DNA of 64,000 nt, from positions 24,908,501 to 24,972,500 of the forward strand of contig NC_088924.1 of NCBI RefSeq assembly GCF_038396675.1, given 5' to 3'. This document shows, one piece after another, positions 31,701 through 34,700 of this stretch. The notes under the pieces were generated by a model that saw nothing but the letters and a program-made list of their open reading frames with translations, ran no database searches and was not told the origin of the DNA. The DNA is from Hydra vulgaris. Lineage: Eukaryota; Cnidaria; Hydrozoa; Anthoathecata; Hydridae. Numbering within the stretch: the stretch's first letter is position 1; every line of letters starts with the position of its first letter. Position numbers and translations under genes: made by a program.

Positions 31701-34700
31701 TTTTTTTTTTAATTTAAATTTAGTCTTAAATTAAAATATTAATATAGCATATTAAATATTTAAATTATATTAAATATTTTTAAATTATTTTAAATTATTT
31801 AATAGGTATTTTAAATATGAATGTATAAACTTAATAATAAATACTTTTTATTATAAACATAAACCTAAATATTTTTAAATCTATTTAAATAAAAATTAAC
31901 AATATTTTAAAATGAAACTAATGTAAATCTTTTGTATTTTAAATTTTCTCTGAAATTCTGCTAACCCTGTTGTTTACTCTCCTATAGTTAAAATTTTTTA
32001 TAAGAATGCTCACTAATATTTATATTTATGCTAAAACACAGGTGAATGCTCACTAATATTTATATTTATGCTAATACACAGGTAAATGCTCACTAATATT
32101 TATATTTATGCTAATACACAGGTGAATGCTCACTAATATTTATATTTATGCTAATACACAAGTGAATGCTCACTAATATTTATATTTATGCTAATACAAA
32201 GGTGAATGCTCACTAATATTTATATTTATGCTAATACACAGGTGAATGCTCACTAATATTTATATTTATGTTAATACACAGGTGAATGCTCACTAATATT
32301 TATATTTATGCTAATACACAGGTGAATGCTCACTAATATTTATATTTATGCTAATACACAGGTGAATGCTCACTAATATTTATATTTATGCTAATACACA
32401 GGTGATCGCCTTAAAGAAGCTACAAAAATTAATTTATCACTCTCTGCACTTGGGAATGTTATATCAGCACTTGTTGATGGAAAATCTAAGCACATACCAT
32501 ATAGAGATTCAAAGTTAACTCGTTTGCTCCAGGTGTGGTGATAGTAATATAATTTTTGTTTTTTTGTTTTAAAAATAATTTTTTTGTTTTATTTTTTTTA
32601 ATGGTATAGGATTCATTAGGAGGTAATACAAAAACATTGATGGTAGCATGTATTAGTCCAGCTGATAATAACTATGATGAAACACTCAGTACTTTGCGAT
32701 ATGCTAATCGTGCAAAAAATATTAAGAATAAGCCGAAAATAAATGAAGATCCTAAAGATGCTCTTCTTCGAGAATATCAAGGAGAAATAGCTCTTCTTAA
32801 AAAAGTCCTCACTGGAGAGTTGACAATGACTCCTGAAATTTTAGGTACACTATTAAGCTACACAAATTTTTTGTAATAAAAAAAAATTATTTAACATGTT
32901 TGTTTTGCCTACTGAGGAAAAAGTTTCATTACTAAAAGAAAAATTTTAAATATTCTTAGTAATATTTCATAATTTTCTTCACATTCAAAATGGTCACATA
33001 TTGCTTTATTAAATAATTTGCTTATCTGTCTATATTAAATCTGTAAACATTTTTTTGATTCTATTTAAGTACAACTGATATTATAAAAGACTTTTTATTA
33101 AAAAATAAATGTTTGTTTGCTACATATTTTTTAGTAATTAAATAGTCACATATTACTGCATTAAATAATTTGCTTATCTGTCTATATAACATCTGTAAAC
33201 ATTTTTTTATTGATTCTAATCAAGTACAACTGATATTATAAAAGACTTTTTATTAAAAAAGAAATATTTGTTTGGTTTTTATACATTATTTATTACTACT
33301 TTACTACACCATAACTTTTTACTGAAAGTTTACTTCTAGTGGAATCAAACAAACTATAGAAAATAATGCACAAGTATATGTTTTACAATGTTATCATAAC
33401 AAAAACTCAGAGAACTTTTTAACTCAAAGCTTCTTTAAAGTTAATTTTTAATTCGGTAATAATTGTTGGCATGGGATGGAAAAATCTTAAAATTAATATA
33501 CAAGATGAACAAATATATAATTAATTTTATACTATATATTAGTATAAAATTAAATAAATATTTTTTATATATTAGAACCATAATAGTGTTGGGATTTTTT
33601 TTGAAAAAAAATGTACCGATAATTGTTTTATTACATTTTTGACTTTTGCAAAAGTGTTTAGAATCACCCAGAATAATATATATATATTATTATTATTATT
33701 ATTATTATTATTATATATATATATATTTAGAAGTTTAACTGTGAAAAGCTTTTCAATAGTTCTGTTAACCAAGTGGTTATATTGTTCATAAATTTTATAA
33801 TGTGTATTTCATTAATATTTATTTCAGTAAAAACTACTACAGTCAATTTAGAAAACAATGAAATCAATTTTACTTGCATGTAAAGCATGCAATACAATAA
33901 TATTATAGTTAATATTATTATCTCCTAAATCTATATAAAAAAAAACCAATAAGTTCACCGAAATATTTTTACTGCACAAGATCTTTCTGGGTTTATTAAA
34001 GACATTTTTTTCTTATTAAGATTTTTTTTTTTCCTTAAACGCTTTTGGAACACAAGAATGACACATGATTTTATATCATAATTCCTTAAAAGATTCTGCA
34101 ATTAATAAAGCAAAAAGCATCCTCTCGATTGTGGTTTAATTGATAATTATTCGTACCACATTAACGAAAGAAAGGGGTGGGGGGGTGTGTAGTTAGTGCA
34201 CCACACCAGAGCACATAAGAGTTCAAAGGTCCATTAACATTGATTTTTATCTATAATCTAGACTAAAATAAATAATAATAATATAGTAATATGATGATAA
34301 ACCTAAAACTAAATATTATTTAAATATGAACCTAAAACTAAATATTAGGGGTGTGTTGATGCATGTTGTTTTAAAAAACCAGTTTTTTTAGGTTTTGTGT
34401 TTCTATATTGTATGCAAAAATATAATTATTCTATCAACGAAAATGCATGAATAAACCTAAGTTATTATATAGACATATCTACAACAACTAAACCTTTAAA
34501 TATTTTTTGGAATTTTTTATCAGGAGCTACCTACATTTAGTGTCTTTTTGTAATATAGGAAAGCAGTTATATGACTTATGGATCCAAAGTATACACAGAG
34601 ATAAGTTTAAAATCAACAAATGTAAATGTAATGTAAAATTTCTGCCAGATGTTCCTCTTAACATTTTTATTTTGCAAATTAACGTTAACCGTTAACTTTA

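Follow-up and report, generated by a model that had tools for sequence, protein, structure and literature searches.

Intron 3 of a KIF17/OSM-3-like kinesin gene of Hydra vulgaris ends in a tandem array of near-identical units, each of which looks like the end of an intron. How is such an intron spliced, and does the array serve the gene, or is it tolerated by it? We addressed this question in the window, that is, the whole 64,000-nucleotide stretch of DNA analysed (contig NC_088924.1, positions 24,908,501 to 24,972,500 of the forward strand), to which the positions below refer unless a genome locus is given. Most probably, the array is a locus-specific minisatellite that lies across a splice boundary and is mainly tolerated, with the exon-proximal copy favoured by splicing.

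The kinesin gene and its array

PF00225, the kinesin motor domain, is matched by part of each of exons 2 to 5 and also by a P-loop-bearing open frame located at 19437-19793. When exons 3-5 are joined, the frame is open. The best PDB match of the joined protein is C. elegans OSM-3 (E 2.4e-100), the orthologue of KIF17, and KIF3B comes next; exon 3 alone matches KIF3B better than OSM-3. The gene features relevant to the array are the following:

29824-30130, plus strand: exon 3, KIF17/OSM-3-like, with the donor GCAACAG|GTGAGT in phase 1; 5' boundary set by consensus only
30131-32401, plus strand: intron 3, 2271 nt, the 3' end of which is the array
32402-32532, plus strand: exon 4, GTGATCGCC...CTCCAG|gtgtgg
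32533-32609: intron 4, 77 nt
32610-32844, plus strand: exon 5, with a plausible donor TTTTAG|GTACAC, set by consensus only

In the 28001-29823 interval, exon 2 apparently ends in phase 1 (GCAC|GTAATT), and exon 3 starts in phase 0 (TATAG|GGAATA). Between the two there may be a small exon, 3n+2 bases long, that has escaped recognition.

Tandem Repeats Finder placed an array of period 40 at 32004-32405 on the plus strand (10.1 copies, 97% matches, score 769). Unit-by-unit comparison resolved ten head-to-tail 40-bp units at 32004-32403, with the repeat match extending to 32405, four bases into exon 4. Self-identity at period 40 is 97.5%, whereas none of 2000 mononucleotide shuffles exceeded 38.7%. 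The original prediction, which had set a tandem array of intron ends directly before exon 4, was right about the array and its tandem units. It miscounted them as nine plus one; there are ten in all, counting the unit in use. Five substitutions in the 400 bp distinguish the units:

Unit 1: substitution in column 32
Unit 3: substitution in column 1
Unit 4: substitution in column 38 (32161, plus strand), changing AGGT to AAGT; the sole unit end without AG|GT
Unit 5: substitution in column 36; the end reads AAAG, versus ACAG
Unit 7: substitution in column 28
32364-32403, plus strand: last unit; its AG, at 32400-32401, is the only acceptor found to preserve the KIF17 frame

As had been predicted, each unit has a CTAAT resembling a branch point at -26 and an AG acceptor followed by the first bases of the exon, and 36-38 of its 40 bases are intronic. 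Because the unit includes the first GT of the exon, all copy junctions but one read AG|GT and thereby join an acceptor directly to a donor. This ratchet-point form had been ascribed to every unit and is found in nine of the ten; unit 4 ends in AAGT instead, which displaces its AG by one base. The description of the copies as equal acceptors does not hold either: the AG of unit 4 is displaced, deviations occur in unit 5 and where unit 2 meets unit 3 (GTAAAT), and none of the sites is strong.

The array resembles the variable-number repeats known at splice boundaries of the CBS and factor VII (F7) genes, in that a head-to-tail unit runs across an exon/intron boundary. As judged by consensus, each unit also contains a usable-looking splice site, with an acceptor that scores low.

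Reading frames and splice-site scores

The frame depends on the acceptor. Splicing to the last acceptor leads into the open motor-domain frame, and each of the nine upstream AGs tested leads to a stop. A stop after about 13 codons had been foreseen for the use of an upstream unit. This is the case for the eight upstream AG|GT acceptors, which add 13 array-encoded residues before the stop (two of them with a single-residue difference), and the shifted AG of unit 4 meets a stop sooner. A further feature that would bring in a stop overlaps the start of the array:

31988-32041, plus strand: candidate poison pseudo-exon, 54 nt, with an acceptor (ctcctatag) reaching to 31987, a donor (CAG|GTGAAT) at 32042 and an in-frame stop

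From the frame, and from the precedent of CBS and factor VII, we infer that the last acceptor is the one in use.

Acceptor scores were obtained from a matrix of 12 sites of the same genome chosen by eye, nine from kinesin loci and three from the window. Thirteen kinesin loci had been fetched (L010-L022), four of which (L016, L020, L021 and L022) were omitted because the junction was ambiguous or not visible. The acceptor in use scores -1.01, under all 12 comparison values (1.49 to 12.17, leave-one-out), which makes the "T-rich tract" of the original prediction a generous wording. Inner array acceptors range from -2.44 to 1.85, and two of them (1.85 and 1.36) outscore the acceptor in use, which is tied 43rd-47th among the 94 AGs of intron 3. 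The site before 31988 ranks 17th on the same list, and four other sites of the intron (31320, 31806, 31597 and 30493) score more than 8. As stronger-looking acceptors are thus present upstream, the 12-site matrix predicts poorly here, and the low score means only that the acceptor in use, judged in this way, is not strong.

A consensus scan of the 95 GTs of intron 3 revealed nine that match the donor consensus at 7 or more of 9 positions; all nine are inside the array, and seven of them match at 8/9. The inner junctions, which had been predicted to match a donor, are indeed the best donor matches of the intron; the sequence of a unit can therefore be interpreted simultaneously as acceptor, would-be short exon and donor. 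Outside the array, at least 8/9 is reached by 6 of the 2968 plus-strand GTs in the window. Because exon 3 ends in CAG, a donor would be regenerated on joining it to GTGAAT; the product matches the consensus at 8/9, and exon 3's own donor at 9/9.

RNA structure was also considered as a selector among the copies and was rejected, as no special fold was apparent. The 451 nt folded around the array are less stable than 100 of 100 dinucleotide shuffles (z = +2.58), and Rfam gave no match in the window at gathering scores.

Origin and genomic background

A search of the 911.5-Mb assembly (15 contigs) for a 23-bp core of the unit gave 10 exact matches, all in the array, and none for the reversed control. 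The search covered exact matches, so that diverged copies would escape it. The absence of another exact copy argues for a local origin, by tandem duplication across the boundary between intron 3 and exon 4, and, within the reach of an exact search, against a dispersed introner or mobile repeat. The edges of the array (ATAA|GAATGC on the left, AGGT|GATCGC on the right) point in the same direction, to an intron end and an exon start duplicated in place, and would fit a simple duplication sharing the GA common to both. The GA may reflect microhomology. By chance, however, 21% of junctions would share two or more bases; the GA is thus weak evidence, and we rejected it as proof of mechanism. Intron gain by duplication of an exonic AGGT was likewise rejected, since 36-38 of the 40 bases are intronic, and the intron has its donor and last acceptor independently of the other copies.

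This genome has many minisatellites. The readable part of 20 stretches, sampled at round coordinates from 9 of the 15 contigs, amounts to 177.5 kb and contains 8 arrays with 4 or more copies, a period no shorter than 20 bp and matches no lower than 80%, corresponding to roughly 45 per Mb (95% range 19 to 89) and to 1.7% of bases. The window contains four. One minisatellite on a splice boundary consequently requires no special cause. Other repeats and mobile-element frames observed in the window are the following:

3628-4152: minisatellite, 18 copies of 29 bp
5699-6730: mariner-type transposase reading frame (Pfam)
36762-36953: a second array, with more diverged 30-bp units, further on in the KIF17 gene region; its unit likewise has AGGT (CACAAG|GTCTAA); three AGGT were found
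48975-49862: DDE_3 (Tc-type) transposase reading frame (Pfam)
53360-53944: minisatellite, 8 copies of 73 bp
55574-56272, minus strand: reverse transcriptase reading frame (Pfam)

Arrays of similar make-up were sought in the genome as three CAGGTRA motifs with a start-to-start spacing of 27-57 bp. The scan, in which overlapping windows were counted, gave 338 matches, versus 139 in the reversed control. Six acceptor-like arrays (L043-L048) were picked by eye among the matches listed, which reach as far as C5:2.9 Mb, short of the KIF17 array itself, and none of the six has a visible exon start at the downstream end. CAG|GTRA arrays thus occur at other loci as well, but among the seven arrays looked at, only the KIF17 array has the acceptor in use as its last copy. 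L043 (G000:C3:898280-898640, with the array continuing to 898972) is a 34-bp array with ACAG|GTGAAT junctions in intron-like sequence, approximately 0.2 kb upstream of a plausible exon. A 21-bp array at G000:C1:29195632-29196016, the listed units of which read CAGGTAAGAACATTCAACTGG, repeats a near-consensus 5' splice site many times over.

A kinesin-2-like paralogue (L015, G000:C5:17459727-17462801, minus strand) has an ordinary single acceptor at a near-matching intron position, and an intron at that position therefore needs no array. The two introns are one nucleotide apart and differ in phase (0 in the paralogue versus 1 in KIF17), an offset possibly due to intron sliding.

Splicing through the array and known systems

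In the tolerated-minisatellite reading, a segment at the junction of intron 3 and exon 4, made up of about 36-38 intron bases and the initial 2-4 bases of the exon, would have been duplicated in tandem and would have grown to ten copies, multiplying the acceptor. Exon 3 would be spliced mostly to the exon-proximal unit, as suggested by the frame and by precedent. If an upstream unit were used, the CAG of exon 3 and GTGAAT would, on sequence grounds, form a donor again. A leak of two or more units (at least 80 nt) could then be removed by a second splicing step; intron 4 has a length of 77 nt, so that an intron of 80 nt is plausible here. If just one unit leaked through, the would-be intron would measure 40 nt, which is probably too short, and the message would end in a stop. 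The array would be tolerated because splicing favours the exon-proximal copy, perhaps with some loss of yield. The 12 columns that surround the junction contain three of the five substitutions, AG|GT is abolished by one substitution, and there is thus no sign that the inner sites are preserved, although these numbers are too small to weigh heavily.

Of the alternatives, the one that survives best, itself unlikely, is a recursive ladder, in which splicing would enter at any AG|GT, regenerate CAG|GTGAAT each time and ratchet down to exon 4. Nine junctions juxtapose acceptor and donor as ratchet points do, joining to exon 3 would restore a good donor, and the location of the best donor matches of intron 3, all within the array, makes a ratchet-point reading plausible by sequence. 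In Drosophila, moreover, the cryptic exon that follows a ratchet point (RS-exon) is approximately 50 nt long (PMC8605326), and a 40-nt unit followed by a donor resembles it. However, the ratchet points described there lie mostly in long introns, such as those of Ubx (~73 kb) and kuz (~50 kb), whereas intron 3 spans 2271 nt, and the substitutions strike the junction motif as often as noted above. Mutants of the regenerated donor indicate that donor competition excludes the cryptic RS-exon in Drosophila (PMC8605326). In Hydra the regenerated donor and that of the next unit are nearly equal, and the competition would be about even, which speaks against clean ratcheting. The point is not decisive, as some Drosophila reporters defy donor strength; for instance, hth shows skipping despite a weaker ratchet donor (PMC8605326).

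We consider it improbable that the array acts as a rheostat, with copy number setting the choice of a poison acceptor or of the 54-nt pseudo-exon and hence the yield of KIF17 protein. In favour of this, an early stop would follow from the use of any of the eight upstream AG|GT acceptors, of the displaced AG in unit 4 or of the pseudo-exon at 31988-32041, but the inner sites give no sign of preservation. Equally improbable is a self-correcting combination of the two, in which entries at AG|GT would ratchet toward exon 4 and copy number would tune the share of messages stuck with a single 40-nt unit and its stop; if true, KIF17 output would be under a length-variable, heritable dial that works via recursive splicing. 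Less credible still is an avidity effect, in which a weak 3' splice site would recruit the splicing machinery with the joint help of ten weak branch-point/acceptor copies. Low scores on the 12-site matrix agree with it, as does the CTAAT at -26 of each unit, given that CTAAY occurs between -18 and -40 in only 1 of the 12 comparison acceptors; in this small set, however, the looser YTRAY is found there in 5 of 12. That the array exists but owes its length to the assembler is very improbable: the copy number comes from a single assembly, and near-identical repeat units are prone to collapse or expansion, but 5 of the 10 units bear their own substitution, and 402 bp is short relative to long reads.

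The readings differ in the messages they predict. Leakage or recursion would give messages with multiples of 40 nt, with the 54-nt pseudo-exon or with exon 3-GTGAATGC junctions, and a neutral array would give only exon 3-GTGATCGCC junctions. PMC12220107 describes Iso-Seq data and assemblies, resolved by haplotype, of two Hydra strains, and the answer may thus already exist in public data. The ten near-identical cassettes, with known single-base differences, are a natural experiment on 3' splice site choice, in which site strength is nearly equal and distance to the exon is the main difference. Use of inner copies would reveal, in one gene, whether ratcheting occurs at neighbouring AG|GT sites; their disuse would be clean evidence that the downstream exon decides.

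Several known systems resemble a tolerated minisatellite at a splice boundary. In the human CBS variant c.844_845ins68, the intron 7/exon 8 junction is duplicated, and the distal, exon-proximal copy (termed the "donor" in that text) is strongly favoured (PMC2630376). The likeness lies in the tandem duplication of an intron/exon junction. In contrast to the ten, mostly intronic copies of Hydra, the 68-bp segment of the variant is present twice and contains bases of exon 8. Romano 2002, cited for this duplication, reportedly has "3' splice site selection" in its title.

Intron 7 of the human factor VII gene contains a variable number of highly homologous 37-bp repeats, and normally only the outermost, exon-side site is used (PMC6627357); the portion of PMC3778950 available contains nothing on these repeats. 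Both genes have near-identical units of approximately 40 bp at a splice site, but the factor VII array is at a 5' splice site, whereas the Hydra array consists of 3' splice sites fused to donors. A 31-bp repeat of human CBS, c.1444_1467+7(16_21), occurs in 16 to 21 copies (PMC2630376). By its name, the unit spans an exon/intron boundary, as in Hydra, but on the donor side of the exon and with 24 of 31 bases exonic, whereas the Hydra array is at an acceptor and mostly intronic.

Tandem duplication has also been linked to intron gain, in fission yeast through 24-nt repeats (PMC3629103) and in potato RdRp and ATP2A1 (PMC4974935). The fission-yeast repeats are given as AGGT in PMC4974935 and as AGGC in the original PMC3629103. 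In these cases, too, tandem duplication yields matched acceptor and donor signals, but a new intron arises, whereas in Hydra the intron pre-existed, with no need for a new one. Drosophila ratchet points share the juxtaposed AG|GT and a short cryptic exon with a downstream donor. They are, however, one or a few conserved sites with RNA evidence, in contrast to nine near-identical putative sites in a 2.27-kb intron. Titles and abstract openings of the open-licence literature yielded no earlier 3' splice-site array, ratchet repeat or recursive splicing in Hydra, which is weak evidence of absence. Against this background, the array is best filed as a splice-boundary minisatellite, of a 3' form with AG|GT junctions.
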